A stretch of DNA of 64,000 bases, from positions 248,001 to 312,000 of the forward strand of contig NZ_MIYK01000001.1 in NCBI RefSeq assembly GCF_002907375.1, in the 5' to 3' direction. The first letter of the stretch is position 1. Each line of letters begins with the position of its first letter. Below the pieces are notes generated by a model. The model ran no database searches, had not been told where the DNA came from, and was given only the letters and a program-made list of their open reading frames with translations. The stretch comes from Fructilactobacillus lindneri DSM 20690 = JCM 11027 (GTDB taxonomy: Bacteria > Bacillota > Bacilli > Lactobacillales > Lactobacillaceae). Positions 9,173-45,705 of the stretch are shown in pieces. Position numbers and translations under genes: made by a program.

Positions 9173-10522
9173 ATGATAAATAATGAACCTGAATTAAATA
9201 AAGATACAACTTATTTTTTCGTTGGAATTAAAGGAACGGGAATGAGTGCCATGGCATTAGTAGTGCATGACATGGGATGCAAAGTTGAAGGATCAGATAT
9301 TGAAAAATATACTTTTACCCAAAAGGGATTAGAAGATGAGGGGATTTCAGTATACCCATTTAATCCCGACAATATTAAACCCGGTATGACTTTAATAGTT
9401 GGAAATGCTTTTAAAGATGATCAGCCTGAGGTTGTTCGTGCTAAGGAAATGGGATTGCCAGTTTATCGTTATCCAGAATTTTTGGAAGAATTGATTAAAA
9501 ATTTTACCAGTATCGCTGTTTGTGGAGCTCACGGTAAAACAAGTACTTCTGGATTGTTAGCACATGTTTTGAGTGGGATTGCTCCAACTGATTATCTGGT
9601 TGGAGATGGTACCGGTAATGCAACACCTGATGCTAGATTCTTTGTATATGAGGCTGATGAGTATCGGAGACACTTCATGCCAACATATCCAGATTATGCA
9701 ATTATGACAAATATTGATTTTGATCATCCTGATTATTATAAAGGAATCGATGATGTTTTTGATGCCTTTCAAACTTTTGCTTCACACGTTAAAAAAGGAA
9801 TCTTTGCTTGGGGTGATGATCCTTATTTACGAAAAATTGAAGCTGATGTTCCAGTTTATTACTATGGTACAAAAGAAAAAGATGATTTTCGTGCTACTGA
9901 TATCAAAAGAACGACTACTGGATCAACTTTTAACGTTGTTTTTCGCGGCAAAAACTTAGGTCGCTTTGAAATCCCATTATTTGGTGAACATAATGTACTT
10001 AACACCCTTGCAGTAATAGCAGTTGCTTACTTTGAAGAAGTTGATTTAGATGAAATCAAACGAGAATTATTAACTTTTAAGGGAGTAAAAAGACGTTTTT
10101 CTCAAATTAAAATTGGTGATATGACAATTATTGATGATTATGCTCATCATCCATCTGAAATTAAAGCCACTTTAGATGCAGCAAGACAAGAGTATCCTAA
10201 TAAAGAAATCATTGTAGTTTTTCAACCACATACTTTTAGTAGAACAATTGCTTATTTAGATGATTTTGCCAAAACTTTGGGTAAGGCTGACAAAGTATTT
10301 GTAACTAAAATTTATGGATCTCCCCGTGAGAAATCTGGCCATGTAACTAGTCAAGATTTGGTTGATAAGATTGATAATGGTAATTTGATTAGTGAGGACA
10401 ATATGTCTCCATTGCTAGATTATAAAAATGCTGTAATTATTTTTATGGGTGCTGGGGATATTCAGAAATATGAAAGAACATATGAAGAATTACTTAGTCA
10501 TTTAAGTAAAAAAGTAAATTAG
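9173..10522 (+). CDS. murC: UDP-N-acetylmuramate--L-alanine ligase MurC
   Basis: Cytoplasmic peptidoglycan enzyme joining L-Ala to UDP-MurNAc with ATP. It shows the N-terminal Rossmann motif [13 protein letters not shown], the ATP loop [12 protein letters not shown], the central EADEYRRHF and [10 protein letters not shown] motifs, and the C-terminal [10 protein letters not shown]. The length of 449 residues is normal. The start is the first ATG after a TAA in the same frame, so it cannot begin further upstream. AAGGAG (9153-9158) is rather far away (14 nt). Confidence 0.96.
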
Positions 10523-10553
10523 AAACTTTATTTAACACTTTTACCACCTTTGG

Positions 10554-10562
10554 TGTTATGAT
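10554..10562 (+). promoter_or_regulatory. Extended -10 promoter for the murC-polA intergenic RNA
   Basis: TGTTATGAT fits the extended -10 pattern TGnTATAAT. Transcription would begin about 10568-10571, exactly where the closing helix of the candidate RNA starts. No good -35 is visible, which extended -10 promoters can tolerate. Confidence 0.45.
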
Positions 10563-10568
10563 TCAGTT

Positions 10569-10783
10569 AAGATGACGGTAACTCAACAGGCATTTTAGGT
10601 TTTTAAACACGAATGAATTAGAACGAGTTTGTTAATTAATAATTAATAAAAATTTTTGATTTTTTAGTTTTAAAGTAATGAAATAATAATAGTACTGATT
10701 AATTTCTTCCTGTCTGTTAGAGTTATCGTTATCAAGAGAATATATTCTTGCCGTCCTGCTGTGGCCACAGCAGGACGTTTTTT
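10569..10783 (+). ncRNA. Candidate structured small RNA with 6S-like closing helix
   Basis: This fills most of the 392-nt gap between murC and polA, which holds no convincing gene. Bases 10571-10584 pair with 10720-10733 over 14 positions (12 Watson-Crick, 2 G-U). After one bulged A, 10585-10592 pair with 10711-10718 for 8 more. The enclosed 118 nt are very AT-rich with only weak local hairpins visible. A GC-rich terminator follows at 10752-10783. A long closing helix around a large open interior, with the 5' end at the helix base, resembles 6S RNA, but I cannot confirm the family. A regulatory leader of polA is the alternative. Confidence 0.5.
10752..10783 (+). terminator. GC-rich intrinsic terminator upstream of polA
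   Basis: A 26-nt perfect palindrome (10752-10777; the arm reads CGTCCTGCTGTGG) is followed by TTTTTT. It is the most GC-rich stretch of this gap and lies 130 nt before polA, so it ends transcription from murC or from the candidate RNA. Confidence 0.85.
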
Positions 10784-10914
10784 GTTTAAAAATTTTAGTT
10801 AACAATATTAGATAATCGTCATGAAGTATAATAAAATTAGTATAAAAGATTATAATTATGATGAAGTAAAGATATTTAATATCAATAAATATTATTCCTA
10901 GAGGAGTTGCATTT

Positions 10915-13605
10915 ATGTCCGACAAAAAATTATTATTAATTGATGGGAACTCACTAACCTATAAGGCCTTTTTTGCATTATATACATCACTTGATCGTTT
11001 TACTAATCAAGATGGATTGCACACAAATGCAATTTATGGTTTTAACCGTATGTTGGATGATATTTTAGCACAGGTTAAACCAACTGCTGTTTTAGCAGCT
11101 TTTGATGCTGGTAAAACAACTTTCAGAACGAAAATGTTCGATGATTACAAGGCTGGTCGTGCTAAGATGCCTGAAGAATTAAAAGAGCAATTTCCTTATG
11201 TGATGGATTTATTGCATGCTCGTGGGATTAAAACATATGAATTAAAAAATTATGAAGCCGATGATATCATTGGAACTATGGCCAAAAAGGCAGAGTCAGA
11301 AGGATACCAAGTTGAAATAATAACTGGGGATCGTGATTTGACTCAGCTTTGTTCAGAAAAAACAACTGTCTCCGTTTCCAAAAAAGGAGTTAGTGATATT
11401 GAAGCTTACACTCCTAAATATGTAGAAAAATCTATGGGAATAAAACCTAGTCAAATTATTGATATAAAAGGTCTTCAGGGCGATAATTCTGATAATTATC
11501 CTGGAGTTGAAAAAGTTGGACCTAAAACTGCAATTAAGTTAATTAAACAGTTTGGGACTATTGAAAATCTTTATCAACATTTGGATGAAGTTTCTGGAAA
11601 GAAACTAAAAGAACATTTAAAAAATGATCAAGATCAAGCTTTTTTGTCAAAAAAATTAGCTACTATTGATCGAAATACTCCATTGGAAATTAAGTTATCG
11701 GAGTTATCATATCAAGGTGCAAATCAAGACGAGCTGATTGATTTTTATAAAAAAATGGGGTTTAAATCTTTTTTAAAAGATTTTGGAAGTGATGAACAAA
11801 GCTCAGAGCGAAAACTTCCAAATGTTAACTACACAATCTTAACAGAAGCAAATAGCGATGATTTAAAGCAACTTGGTGACAATTTAACTTTTAATTTAGA
11901 AATGTTATCTATGAATTATCATAATGCACAACAAGTTGGTTTTGTAATTGGTAATGGCGAAAAATGGTTTGTTAGTAAAGATTTAAATTTGTTGCAAAAT
12001 GAAAATGTTAAGAATGTATTAGAAAATGAGTCAATCAAGAAAAATGTATTTGACAATAAATCACAGATTGTGGGTTTACACCGAAATAATGTTATTTTAA
12101 AAGGCGTCGATTTTGATATGTTGCTAGTTTCATATTTGTTAAATACGTTAGATAACGCTGATGATATTGGTGAAGTGGCTAATCGACATGGATATGATGG
12201 TGTTTTACCTGATCAGGATATTTATGGAAAAGGTAAAAGTATTAAGATTCCTGATGATAAAATATTGTATGAACATATGACTCGCAAGGCTTTGGCTATT
12301 AGTAAATTAAAAGATGAAATGTTAGTAGATTTAGAAAAACATCAACAAACTGATTTGTATCGTCAGTTAGAGTTGCCACTTTCACAAGTTTTAAGTGAAA
12401 TGGAAATTGATGGTATTACTGTTGATGTTGATAAATTGGAAGAGTTAAAGAGTAAATTTACCGAGCGAGTTTCAGAATTAAAACAAACTATCTATCAAGA
12501 AGCTGGAGAGGAATTTAACATTGGTTCTCCAAAGCAATTAGGAAATATTTTATTTGAAAAAATGGGATTGCCAGTCTTAAAGAAAACTAAAACCGGTTAT
12601 TCCACTTCTGTAGATATTTTGGAAAAACTTGCTCCTGATTATCCAATCATTGATAATATTTTGATTTATCGGCAGTTAACCAAATTAATTTCTACTTATA
12701 TTGATGGAATTAAAGGTGACATTGGAAAGGATAAAAAGGTACATACAAGATATCTTCAAACTCTTACTCAAACTGGTAGGTTATCTTCTGTTGATCCAAA
12801 CTTACAAAACATACCAGTTCGAACTGAGGAAGGTCGAAAAATCCGAGAAGCTTTTGTACCTAGTCATAAGGGATGGAAATTATTTTCTTCTGATTATTCT
12901 CAAATTGAATTACGGGTTTTAGCTGCGATATCAGGTGATAAAAATATGAAAGAGGCCTTTGATAGCGGCGAAGATATTCATGCTGTCACTGCTCGCAGAA
13001 TATTTGAGCTTGATCCTGATGAAAAAGTAACTCCCGAACTAAGAAGACAAGCCAAGGCAGTAAACTTTGGAATTGTTTATGGAATTAGCTCATATGGATT
13101 AGCTCATAACACAGGTATTTCTCCTAAAGATGCCCAAAAATTTATTGATAAATATTTCAAAGAATATCCAGAAGTAAAAAAATATACTGAAGATATTGTT
13201 GAATTTGCTAAAAAAAATGGGTATGTTGAGACCATTTCTAAGAGACGAAGATATATTCCGGAAATTAATTCAAAACGCTTCCAACAACGCCAATTTGCTG
13301 AAAGAATTGCAATGAATTCACCTATCCAAGGCAGTGCGGCTGATATCATCAAAGCTGCTATGATTAAAATGCAACAAGTTTTAAAAGAGAAAGGAATGAA
13401 AGCGAGAATGTTGCTTCAAATTCATGATGAATTAATATTTGAGGCTCCAGAAGCTGAAATTCCAGAATTAGAAAAATTGGTTCCAAAAGTGATGGACTCA
13501 ATTATGAAGACGAGTCCTTTGCTAAAGGCTTCAGATGTTAACTTTAATGTTCCATTAAAAGTTGAAAGCCATTATGGCGACAATTGGTATGATATAAAAA
13601 AATAG
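10915..13605 (+). CDS. polA: DNA polymerase I
   Basis: Fills gaps and removes RNA primers in replication and repair. The 896 residues comprise an N-terminal 5' nuclease (to about 290: LLLIDGNSL, FDAGKTTFR, NYEADDIIG, GDNSDNYPGV), a central exonuclease-like domain, and the C-terminal family A polymerase (DYSQIELRVLA, RRQAKAVNFGIVYGIS, QIHDELIFE). In the central domain the expected acidic Exo I motif appears to read FNLEM, so proofreading is probably lost, as in other Firmicute Pol I. AGAGGAG precedes the ATG. A TATAAT at 10827-10832 is the likely -10 box. mutM follows 15 nt downstream. Confidence 0.96.
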   Translation: MSDKKLLLIDGNSLTYKAFFALYTSLDRFTNQDGLHTNAIYGFNRMLDDILAQVKPTAVLAAFDAGKTTFRTKMFDDYKAGRAKMPEELKEQFPYVMDLLHARGIKTYELKNYEADDIIGTMAKKAESEGYQVEIITGDRDLTQLCSEKTTVSVSKKGVSDIEAYTPKYVEKSMGIKPSQIIDIKGLQGDNSDNYPGVEKVGPKTAIKLIKQFGTIENLYQHLDEVSGKKLKEHLKNDQDQAFLSKKLATIDRNTPLEIKLSELSYQGANQDELIDFYKKMGFKSFLKDFGSDEQSSERKLPNVNYTILTEANSDDLKQLGDNLTFNLEMLSMNYHNAQQVGFVIGNGEKWFVSKDLNLLQNENVKNVLENESIKKNVFDNKSQIVGLHRNNVILKGVDFDMLLVSYLLNTLDNADDIGEVANRHGYDGVLPDQDIYGKGKSIKIPDDKILYEHMTRKALAISKLKDEMLVDLEKHQQTDLYRQLELPLSQVLSEMEIDGITVDVDKLEELKSKFTERVSELKQTIYQEAGEEFNIGSPKQLGNILFEKMGLPVLKKTKTGYSTSVDILEKLAPDYPIIDNILIYRQLTKLISTYIDGIKGDIGKDKKVHTRYLQTLTQTGRLSSVDPNLQNIPVRTEEGRKIREAFVPSHKGWKLFSSDYSQIELRVLAAISGDKNMKEAFDSGEDIHAVTARRIFELDPDEKVTPELRRQAKAVNFGIVYGISSYGLAHNTGISPKDAQKFIDKYFKEYPEVKKYTEDIVEFAKKNGYVETISKRRRYIPEINSKRFQQRQFAERIAMNSPIQGSAADIIKAAMIKMQQVLKEKGMKARMLLQIHDELIFEAPEAEIPELEKLVPKVMDSIMKTSPLLKASDVNFNVPLKVESHYGDNWYDIKK

Positions 13606-17801: not shown

Positions 17802-17830
17802 TTGACATCCATATGGCTGATAGTTAAACT
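17802..17830 (+). promoter_or_regulatory. Sigma-A promoter of the thrS T-box leader
   Basis: A perfect TTGACA (17802-17807) and TAAACT (17825-17830) are separated by exactly 17 nt, directly after the dnaI stop. Confidence 0.8.
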
Positions 17831-17836
17831 ATCACT

Positions 17837-18036
17837 AAGGATATGGAATGATAATTGATTCACAGAGAGAACAGTATATTTCTGGAAACTGTTTGTTGAT
17901 TTTATTATTTTACCACCTTACTAAATTAAAAATTAATATGTGGTTAACGAAGATGTTCATATTTATTATGAATAAATTTGGGTGGAACCGCGTCTAATGA
18001 CGCCCCTGGTATTATAATACCAGGGGCATTTTTTAT
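17837..18036 (+). promoter_or_regulatory. T-box leader of thrS (tRNA-Thr sensing)
   Basis: The conserved T-box sequence GGGTGGAACCGCG is at about 17980-17992. It is followed by the terminator hairpin GCCCCTGGTATTA/TAATACCAGGGGC with a T-run ending near 18036. The first part carries AGAGAG and an AACAGT/ACTGTT hairpin belonging to Stem I. The likely specifier is ACC (17912-17914, followed by A), which reads Thr. Uncharged tRNA-Thr would stabilise the antiterminator and switch thrS on. Confidence 0.9.
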
Positions 18037-18050
18037 AGGAGGAAGAAATT

Positions 18051-20024
18051 ATGGCAGAGTTAACCTTTGAATTTCCTGATGGGAATAAAAAAGAATTTAA
18101 TCGAGGAATTACTGTTGAAGAAATTGCTAAATCAATTTCTGTTAGTCTAGCTAAGAAATCAGTAGCTGGTAAGGTTGATGGAAATTTAGTTGATGTAATG
18201 CAACCTTTAGATGAAGGTGGTAAGATTGAAATTATTACTTCTGGATCTGAAGAAGGGCTTCAAGTATTACGTCAAGGAGCAGCACAATTATTAGAAGCTG
18301 TAGTAAAAAAAGAATTCCCTGAAATAAGAATTGGGGAAATTTCAGCTGATGAAGATGGTTTTTACGTTGATACTGATAAAGAAGATCGCCAGGTTAGTGC
18401 TGATGAATTAGATAATCTTGCTGCAAAAATGAAAAAAGTAATTAAAAATGATGCAAGTGTAAAACGAGTTTATTTAACTAAAGAAGATGCACTTAAAGAG
18501 GTTGATGGTGATCCATATCAAGCTAAATTAATTAATCAAATTAATTCAGATAATGTGTTATTTTATGGTATTGATGGGATTTTAACTTTGGCACAAGGAG
18601 TAGTAGCTCCTAGTTTGAAAGATTTAAAACACTTTAAATTATTGTCAGTTGCTGGTGCTTATTGGGAAGGAAAATCTTCTAACCCAATGTTACAAAGAAT
18701 TTATGGAACTGCTTTTTATAAAGAAGCAGAACTAAAAGCAGATTTACAACAACGCCAAGAAGCAAAAGAGCGTGATCATCGTGTGATTGGTAATAATCTT
18801 GATTTATTCTTTGTAGATCCTAAAGTTGGAGCTGGACTTCCATACTGGATGCCAAATGGTGCAACTATTCGTCGTACGATTGAAAGATACATTACAGACA
18901 AAGAAATCGCTCATGGATATCAACATGTTTATACTCCTGTTTTAGCTAATCTTGATTTATATAAACAATCAGGTCATTGGGATCACTATCGAGAGGATAT
19001 GTTTCCACCAATGAAAATGGATGATGATGAAATGCTTGAATTACGTCCGATGAATTGTCCTTCTCATATTCAAATTTATAAACATCATATTCGTTCATAT
19101 CGTGAATTGCCTTTGCGAATTGCTGAATTAGGAATGATGCATCGTTATGAAAAATCAGGAGCTCTGAGTGGACTACAACGAGTTCGTGAAATGACTTTAA
19201 ATGACGGGCATACCTTTGTAAGTTTGGATCAAATCCAGGATGAATTTAAAAAGATTCTTAACTTAATGATGGAAGTATACAAGGATTTTGATATCGATAA
19301 CTATACTTTCCAATTAAGTTATCGTGATCCAAAGAATACTGAAAAGTATTTTGATGATGATGAAATGTGGAATAAAGCTCAATCAATGTTGAAAGGTGCT
19401 ATGGATGATCTTGGTTTAGACTATGTAGAAGCTGAAGGTGAAGCAGCATTTTATGGTCCAAAACTTGATGTGCAGACCAAGACTGCGCTAGGTAATGAAG
19501 AAACTTTATCAACTATCCAATTAGATTTCATGTTGCCAGAACGATTTGATCTTCATTATGTTGGTGAAGATGGTAAAGAACATCGTCCCGTTATGATTCA
19601 TCGTGGGATTGTATCAACTATGGAAAGATTTACTGCTTACTTAATTGAAATGTATAAAGGTGCTTTCCCAACTTGGTTAGCACCTAAACAAGTGCAAATT
19701 ATTCCCGTTAGCGATGATAAACACGGTGATTATGCTAAAGCTATCAATGAAAAATTACGTGCAGTTAACATCCGTTCCAATGTTGATGAACGAAGTGAAA
19801 AGATGGGATATTTAATTCGAGATGCACAAACTCATAAAATACCATATACGATTGTTGTTGGTGATGATGAAGTTAAAAATAATACTATTTCTGTGCGTAA
19901 ATACGGAGAAGATAACAGTCGCGACTTATCAATGGATGACTTTTTGATGGAAATTTTAAAAGATATTTCTACTTATTCGCGAAATGATGAAAAAGATAGT
20001 AGTAAGGTTGACAAAGTTAAATAA
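18051..20024 (+). CDS. thrS: Threonine--tRNA ligase
   Basis: Charges tRNA-Thr and edits Ser-tRNA-Thr. The 657 residues show a TGS domain (to about 62), then the SAD-type editing domain in shortened or diverged form, since the usual HxxxH zinc-type motif is not obvious. The class II catalytic core contains the [15 protein letters not shown] zinc cysteine, the motif 2 region [20 protein letters not shown] and motif 3 [12 protein letters not shown]. The C-terminal anticodon-binding domain (VQIIPVSD) follows. AGGAGG precedes the ATG, and expression is controlled by the T-box. Confidence 0.95.
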
Positions 20025-20039
20025 TCTTGATAATATTAA

Positions 20040-20189
20040 ATAGATAAAAGCAGAGGCTTCCCGCTTCTCGCCTTAGTGATACTGATTGCTGGGCTTTTAC
20101 GGATTAATGACCTATTTAATAGGTGTAGCGGGTATTCAGCTGAATGCCCGCTATTTTTCTGCTTTAAATATACTTGGAGGTGAACCACC
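20040..20189 (+). promoter_or_regulatory. L20 leader: autoregulatory attenuator of infC-rpmI-rplT
   Basis: This 150-nt untranslated leader precedes infC in the position of the Firmicute L20 leader. It contains a GC-rich paired region (AAAAGC at 20045-20050 with GCTTTT near 20093-20098), a small ACCTATT/AATAGGT hairpin (20110-20124), and a 13-bp attenuator hairpin (20127-20152) ending in ATTTTT. In the known system, excess protein L20 binds the leader and favours termination. Confidence 0.8.
20127..20158 (+). terminator. Attenuator terminator inside the L20 leader
   Basis: AGCGGGTATTCAG pairs with CTGAATGCCCGCT over 13 positions including one G-U, followed by ATTTTT, 31 nt before the infC start. 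Confidence 0.8.
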
Positions 20190-29409: not shown

Positions 29410-30108
29410 ATGAACGGAGAAATTTACGGAAATACTGAAGATATGGCGCAACGATTAGTTGCTAAGACTTATCAAAAAGTTGCCATTGGTTTATTAATAA
29501 CTGGAATCGTAATGGCATTTATGTCTACATTTATGACTAAATTTGTTATGTCGATGGGAATTGGGACCTCATTATTAATTTTAGTCGTAGCATTAGGATT
29601 GATGTTTGCCCTTGGTCATTCGGTTAACGATGAAAGTACGAGTGCTTCAACAACAAATACTATTTATTACTTAATGACAATTTTGTTTGGAGTTTCTTTG
29701 AGTCCAGTATTAATTTACTATGACGTTAGAACAATTGGACTTGCTTTTCTAGGAACTGCCTTGATGTTTGGTGGTTTAACTTTGTACGCTAACAAAACGA
29801 AACGTAATTTTCTTGGAATGGGAGTATACCTATTTTGGGCATTACTTGCAGCAATTGTGCTTAGTTTAGTTGCAATGTTATTAAGAATTCCAACATTATA
29901 TATCATTATTGATGTAGTAATGCTAGTAATCTTTTCATTTTACATTATTTGGGATACTCAAAGCGTAAAGCAATATGCTAGTTCTGTTACTTCAGAAAGT
30001 CAATTACAAAAGTTTAGTGCTATGAGTGCTTTAAGTATTTATCTTGATATTCTTAATATTTTTGAAATTTTACTTGAATTAATTGGAATGAGTAGCAATA
30101 ATCGTTAA
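29410..30108 (+). CDS. Bax inhibitor-1 family integral membrane protein (YbhL/YccA type)
   Basis: A 232-residue protein with about seven transmembrane helices starting near residue 25, and the BI-1 ending SIYLDILNIFEILLELIGM. BI-1 bacterial members are pH-sensitive calcium channels or leak proteins, and some interact with FtsH; the role here is not shown. AAAGGGAG precedes the ATG. It is monocistronic, between gshA and a terminator shared with yidC. Confidence 0.9.
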   Translation: MNGEIYGNTEDMAQRLVAKTYQKVAIGLLITGIVMAFMSTFMTKFVMSMGIGTSLLILVVALGLMFALGHSVNDESTSASTTNTIYYLMTILFGVSLSPVLIYYDVRTIGLAFLGTALMFGGLTLYANKTKRNFLGMGVYLFWALLAAIVLSLVAMLLRIPTLYIIIDVVMLVIFSFYIIWDTQSVKQYASSVTSESQLQKFSAMSALSIYLDILNIFEILLELIGMSSNNR

Positions 30109-45596: not shown

Positions 45597-45705
45597 GTTG
45601 TTGTACTTGTGGACTTCCACAGCTACAACCGCGCAGTGTAAGTTTTAAGTTCGTAAAAGACACTTATCTCTGGCGAGTCTAAGCATATATTAAGAGGAGG
45701 TGCAT
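45597..45705 (+). promoter_or_regulatory. L21 leader (ribosomal protein leader of rplU operon)
   Basis: A structured 5' leader of about 110 nt. TTGTTGTACTTGTGG...CCACAGCTACAACC forms a helix with GTGG/CCAC, followed by a CGCGCAGTG segment and a further folded part (AAGACACTTATCTC...). The position and the CTACAACCGCGCAGTG box fit the Firmicute L21 leader, thought to control rplU, prp and rpmA together. Confidence 0.75.

Follow-up and report, generated by a model that had tools for sequence, protein, structure and literature searches.

Small RNAs that derive from 3' untranslated regions (3' UTRs) or are encoded as orphans between genes, and that end at intrinsic terminators, form a general class, as do MITE-like palindromic repeats. 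The element described here, which lies between murC and polA, resembles the former in being structured, in its position beside the 3' end of a housekeeping gene and in ending with a GC-rich hairpin and a U-run. Unlike members of that class it is without a relative and known from sequence alone, and the class itself has no defining model. With MITE-like repeats it shares imperfect inverted repeats around an AT-rich centre, an intergenic position and confinement to one lineage, but it is single-copy, no target duplication was seen, and its stability is strand-biased. A third system is 6S RNA. According to the main text of a 2021 survey, 6S RNA is present in over 91% of 1,092 genomes of lactic acid bacteria (LAB), where its gene sits between rarA and uspA, its RNA carries a large central bulge on the 5' side, a terminator follows it in most species, and Weissella has a hard-to-detect form (PMC8414754). 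The murC-polA element is like 6S RNA in length (180-196 nt for the 6S matches at loci L007-L036), in its long closing stem, in its rod shape and in its downstream terminator; it differs in having no match to a 6S model and no 5' central bulge, in not lying at rarA-uspA and in not being found in relatives.

In the window, i.e. the whole stretch of 64,000 nucleotides that was analysed, murC (UDP-N-acetylmuramate--L-alanine ligase; 9173-10522, plus strand; TIGR01082 over its cut-off) lies upstream and polA (DNA polymerase I; 10915-13605, plus strand; TIGR00593 and NF004397 over their cut-offs) lies downstream of a gap of 392 nt (10523-10914). An earlier sequence-only reading had placed a structured small RNA, 6S-like in architecture, in this gap; the gap with its structured element was confirmed, as was the identity of the neighbours by TIGR01082 and TIGR00593. 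The plus strand of the element has no open reading frame of at least 20 aa. Pairing counts and pair probabilities define a closing helix whose 5' arm (10571-10592, plus strand) pairs with a 3' arm at 10711-10733 exactly as had been claimed: 10571-10584 pairs with 10720-10733 at all 14 positions, two of them G-U, and after a one-base bulge at 10719, 10585-10592 pairs with 10711-10718 at all 8, one of them a G-U pair absent from the earlier reading. Pair probabilities in the 14-bp part were 0.96-1.0 and did not change when the murC tail or the polA leader was folded in. Stacked on this helix is a predicted AT-rich apical hairpin (10593-10683), which begins with 10593-10597 paired to 10679-10683 (p 0.6-0.73) and continues into inner stems. 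The 3' strand of the interior loop (10684-10710) is U/A-rich, ends in UUUCUUCC and is largely unpaired (mean paired probability of ten-base tiles ~0.17-0.56). The interior had been described as large and AT-rich; it is AT-rich, but it is mostly paired, and only 10684-10710 is largely open. Directly after the rod sits an intrinsic terminator (10752-10783, plus strand), a 26-nt palindrome (10752-10777) followed by T6, which was the only one found by the terminator scan in 10450-10950 and was borne out against shuffled sequences (shuffle mean 0.0).

To characterize the fold, we compared its energy with that of shuffled sequences. With the terminator excluded, 10566-10740 folds at -43.2 kcal/mol (z -5.2, with 0 of 200 shuffles as low), and repeat shuffles gave z -5.1 (n=400) and z -4.6 (n=300, 0/300 as low); inclusion of the terminator lowers the energy of the element to -64.4 kcal/mol (z -6.7). 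The minus strand of the element, analyzed in the run that gave z -4.6 for the plus strand, reached -20.0 kcal/mol (z -1.2), and 34 of 300 shuffles were as low. Ranked by energy below shuffles, tile 10566-10740 stands 7th among 511 plus-strand tiles of 175 nt, and the six tiles above it contain terminators, the thrS T-box with its terminator, or tRNA-Arg. By z, in this same rough scan of 16 shuffles, it stood at -3.7, a value undercut by no fewer than 13 of the 20 listed tiles. Raw energies of this size are not rare in the window: of 1064 tiles of 180 nt on each strand, 47 on the plus strand and 9 on the minus strand are as low. A helix of 22 pairs interrupted by no more than one bulge arose in 1 of 200 shuffles of 10523-10750, indicating that the length of the helix is by itself less remarkable than the energy. 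All three non-Watson-Crick positions in the arms are G-U on the plus strand; by a rough reckoning of our own, the chance that three random substitutions all stay compatible with G-U pairing is ~0.5-4%. Given that the helix was picked for its pairing, these departures are suggestive only, as a hint at a plus-strand RNA. Together, the strand asymmetry and the three G-U departures favour a plus-strand RNA over a plain inverted repeat in the DNA.

The sequence-only reading had also proposed that an extended -10 promoter sets the 5' end at the base of the helix. The sequence is present (TGTTATGAT, 10554-10562, plus strand) and would place the transcript start near 10569, but the promoter is weak, given that the promoter scan listed no site at 10554-10562 and that the motif TGNTATRAT is common, occurring 14 times on the plus strand of this AT-rich window. 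The element would be transcribed either with murC, forming the final 260 nt of its mRNA, or separately, as an RNA of ~215 nt, from the extended -10, and either transcript would end at the terminator at 10752-10777. The long closing helix would then block exonucleases, so that a stable fragment remains, and the element may serve to stabilise a 3' end or be an orphan sRNA, the unpaired U/A- and pyrimidine-rich strand at 10684-10710 being the part open to pairing with other RNAs. A structured RNA is supported by an energy far below that of shuffles, by a helix that is stable in longer contexts and by a strong terminator, and is weakened by the weak promoter, by the 22-pair helix among 200 shuffles and by the 47 of 1064 tiles of equally low energy. 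The element probably represents either the 3'-terminal part of the murC transcript or a separate orphan sRNA of ~215 nt. The fuller proposal, that the murC-polA structure is a lineage-specific structured RNA element or insert other than 6S, acting as a murC 3' UTR or as an orphan sRNA, has in our estimate about an even chance of being correct. Of the description as a 6S-like structured RNA, the structured RNA held, by fold energy and strand asymmetry, and the likeness to 6S did not, by models, loop side, locus and relatives. The suggestion of a new family survives as an orphan of one species but not as a family. As things stand, an orphan structured element in one species carries little weight; if expressed and functional, it would matter as an sRNA of recent origin in a single lineage, with a housekeeping gene on either side.

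Ranked close behind the structured 3' UTR or sRNA, and in our view a substantial though lesser possibility, is a neutral insertion in the murC 3' UTR, i.e. the decayed remnant of a palindromic mobile element whose terminal inverted repeats are the arms, or a chance AT-rich palindrome, in either case functionless. An insert of this kind would agree with the imperfect inverted repeats that flank an AT-rich centre and with the distribution of the element, which among the genomes searched was found in one only. The comparison of murC-polA gaps that had been proposed as a search for covarying pairs had nothing to align, the element being missing from this position in all nine congeners. In seven of the nine the gap is just 81-152 nt, each with a terminator hairpin and T-run as judged by eye, and in the other two a gene separates murC and polA. 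Since no homologue was found, there is no covariation and no sign of selection, and a neutral insert would appear much alike. Against a mobile origin, no second copy was found in the genome itself and none in plasmids at E <= 1, phages gave weak partial matches, and no target-site duplication was seen by eye at the arms. Measured against the features of MITEs and insertion sequences, the arms are inverted repeats with three G-U-type differences and one bulge. The G-U compatibility of the three arm differences and the lack of special stability of the minus strand argue mildly against a decaying DNA repeat.

To search for further copies, we used a covariance model of this single sequence and its fold (R3) on the 10 genus genomes and 30 chosen from other genera, 40 in all. 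The model recovered its own copy at E 2.9e-46, and the next best match was at 0.026; any match at E <= 1 was present in 13 of the 40 genomes, comprising 12 further genomes (E 0.026-0.95) and two additional matches in the own genome (0.32 and 0.98), and no convincing second copy was found among the 40. Three matches that were inspected turned out to be a gene start, a coding region and a terminator-like hairpin. With filters off, R3 gave two hairpin-sized matches at one of the nine congener loci (43 nt, E 0.07; 36 nt, E 0.89). The DNA search of the own genome returned the element itself and the terminator palindrome against itself, with no second copy, and blastn gave no match to plasmids at E <= 1 and the weak partial matches to phages at E 0.07-0.9. 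Among 60 relatives, the DNA search found, besides the element itself, short matches in three genomes: 31 nt at 94% to 10629-10659 in G034 (E 2e-6), and matches to the part beyond the terminator in G032 (30 nt) and G003 (26-106 nt). These are AT-rich and away from murC-polA, and were taken as chance. The right arm, allowing up to 3 mismatches, occurred in the 10 genus genomes at one site, its own, and a reversed control pattern at two. In public collections, which perhaps do not include the own genome, the arm pattern was found in 2 viral and 11 genome contigs with one site each, a count that by our own estimate is about that expected by chance; the titles of the 11 genome contigs included three Clostridia, the others being from other phyla, and no lactobacillus. 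A mobile repeat was rejected for lack of further copies in the own genome, the 10 genus genomes and plasmids. Among the literature matches listed for murC-polA sRNAs there was no bacterial title.

The genes found between murC and polA elsewhere were examined as well. Among 25 loci from other genera, murC was matched upstream in 17, with 862-1147 nt separating it from polA, and in 8 it was not; for 6 of those with murC, the longest frames match the Bax1-I protein of the window. In the two congeners with an intervening gene, that gene is Bax1-I by Pfam at locus L039, and at L071 it resembles the window's Bax1-I. The own genome has no Bax1-I gene at murC-polA and encodes a Bax1-I protein at 29410-30108 of the window, 28-31% identical. 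That the element is a remnant of the Bax1-I gene of congeners was rejected, the only match being of 21 aa at E 0.41.

The remaining explanations are much less probable. The first, an unlikely one, is a cis-regulatory leader of polA (an attenuator or riboswitch), which the sequence-only reading had left as an option. Like leaders, the element lies upstream of its gene and has a terminator at its end. Nevertheless, a strong intrinsic terminator separates the structure from polA, and the predicted fold contains the closing helix and the terminator side by side rather than as alternatives, indicating that this reading is weak. Moreover, the distance from the T-run to polA is 131 nt and includes a promoter-like site (10809-10837), itself no better than chance (3 sites found, 3.2 expected). 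Nor did any Rfam family match the element at its gathering score, and at E <= 10 a search of 10350-10950 gave two eukaryotic families only, far below gathering. Across the whole window, tRNA and the L20 and L21 leaders were the only families at gathering, and there was nothing at gathering in ten of the murC-polA and rarA loci.

Very unlikely, too, is a relocated and strongly diverged 6S RNA, which would bind RNA polymerase and stand in for the 6S RNA that is absent at rarA-uspA. Its size and closing stem would fit, as would the failure to recognise a 6S RNA at another place in the own genome, or in nine congeners, and the little room at rarA-uspA. Against it, the element has no match to any of three 6S models, its loop is on the wrong strand, and the congeners, likewise without a recognised 6S RNA, do not show the element. 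The Rfam covariance search that had been suggested gave no 6S match, RF00013 scoring nothing at gathering across the window nor at E <= 10 on 10350-10950. We also used two 6S models of our own: R1, built from 25 sequences of this bacterial family, and R2, a wider one of 55 sequences. With filters off, the best R1 scores on 10350-10950 were 4.4 and 3.7 bits, both at the terminator palindrome, and R2 with default filters had no match in 10523-10914. R1 is far more sensitive than RF00013 in this family: of the 121 family genomes, RF00013 found a match in 52 at E <= 10 (in 19 over its cut-off), whereas R1 did so in 89 at E <= 1, with 86 at E below 1e-11 (25 training genomes included). Five features of 6S RNA were tested, and the element shows none of them completely, having only the closing stem. 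Past this stem another helix starts immediately on the 5' side, at 10593, and the strand left unpaired, 10684-10710, is the 3' one. Hence the claim of 6S-like architecture failed on the three models, on an unpaired strand that is 3' rather than 5', on a locus other than rarA-uspA and on absence from nine congeners. Of 30 6S loci (L007-L036), 27 have a rarA-like frame upstream and three (L032, L034 and L035) have other genes; the genes in these loci we take to be rarA and usp by the synteny in PMC8414754. The rarA of the own genome is on the same contig, ~91 kb from the element. Least probable of all is a convergent 6S analogue, in which the genus would have lost canonical 6S and a new, unrelated rod-shaped RNA next to murC would have taken over regulation of RNA polymerase in this species.

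The searches also bear on 6S RNA in the genus as a whole. No clear 6S gene, which would have counted against the earlier reading, was found elsewhere in the own genome, and no recognisable 6S RNA was found in the 10 genus genomes (RF00013 in the own genome; R1 and R2 in all 10). The best RF00013 score elsewhere in the own genome was 13.6 bits (E 1.33), and R1 and R2 listed nothing. In the nine congeners the best R1 match was at E 0.067 (47 nt), and the best R2 matches were at 0.029 (47 nt) and 0.045 (within a gene). The latter, G007:C1:242688-242872, was rejected as 6S because it falls within a 305-aa frame on the opposite strand, and two matches in G006 were rejected as short (47 and 65 nt; E 0.03-0.07). 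We treated the G007 and G006 matches as chance, about as many as expected from 38 genomes at such E-values. The R2 search behind this count of 38 took in all 10 genus genomes, G068 and 27 genomes of the family in which R1 had matched nothing (membership inferred for 12 of the 27); G094, 65% complete, was omitted. R2 added two 6S genes to those found with R1, in G035 and G127, both beside rarA. The candidates scored per genome were at most 150 for R1 in the genus, 69 for R2 in the 38 genomes and 21 for R1 in the 121 genomes; given that only part of the candidates were scored, a very diverged 6S RNA may yet lie elsewhere. R1 had no match at E <= 1 in several other genera of the family, g4, g9, g14, g24 and g49 among them. 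In these genera the best R2 match was at E 0.008 (83 nt, in G078 of g9), and 6S may be lost or diverged there.

At the LAB site itself, rarA-uspA has little or no room for 6S RNA in any of the 10 genus genomes. In all 10 (L089-L099), the start of uspA is 293-360 nt from the rarA stop, and most of this space seems to be taken up by a small membrane-protein frame that elsewhere follows 6S; an ATG-started frame of at least 60 aa was listed in five of the 10 loci, and the other five were judged from similar DNA. With filters off, the R2 scores at the rarA loci did not exceed 12.4 bits (E 0.039); that of the own genome, 11.7 bits (E 0.06), fell on the beginning of rarA. Lacking recognisable 6S RNA at the LAB 6S site, the genus might show, as an experiment of nature, how cells live without 6S, or else where an overlooked 6S has moved; this by-product may be more useful than the element. 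For the absence of recognisable 6S from the genus we claim no priority. 'Fructilactobacillus' was not found among the matches listed in the literature on 6S RNA and small RNA, and neither 'fructivorans' nor 'sanfranciscensis' is present in the main text of PMC8414754, its supplements aside.

Other observations concern the genome and the window. The own-genome rarA (G000:C1:166023-167290; L098 and L099) is split in two, the first part carrying a single in-frame TGA, and the split could be a sequencing error; in the nine congeners rarA was matched in one open frame. Within the window, a T-box leader (17829-18010) lies upstream of thrS (18051-20024), with a match to RF00230 of 45.6 bits (E 4e-9) that is below the gathering score of 93, and ribosomal-protein leaders are present at gathering score at 20042-20165 (L20) and 45617-45690 (L21).
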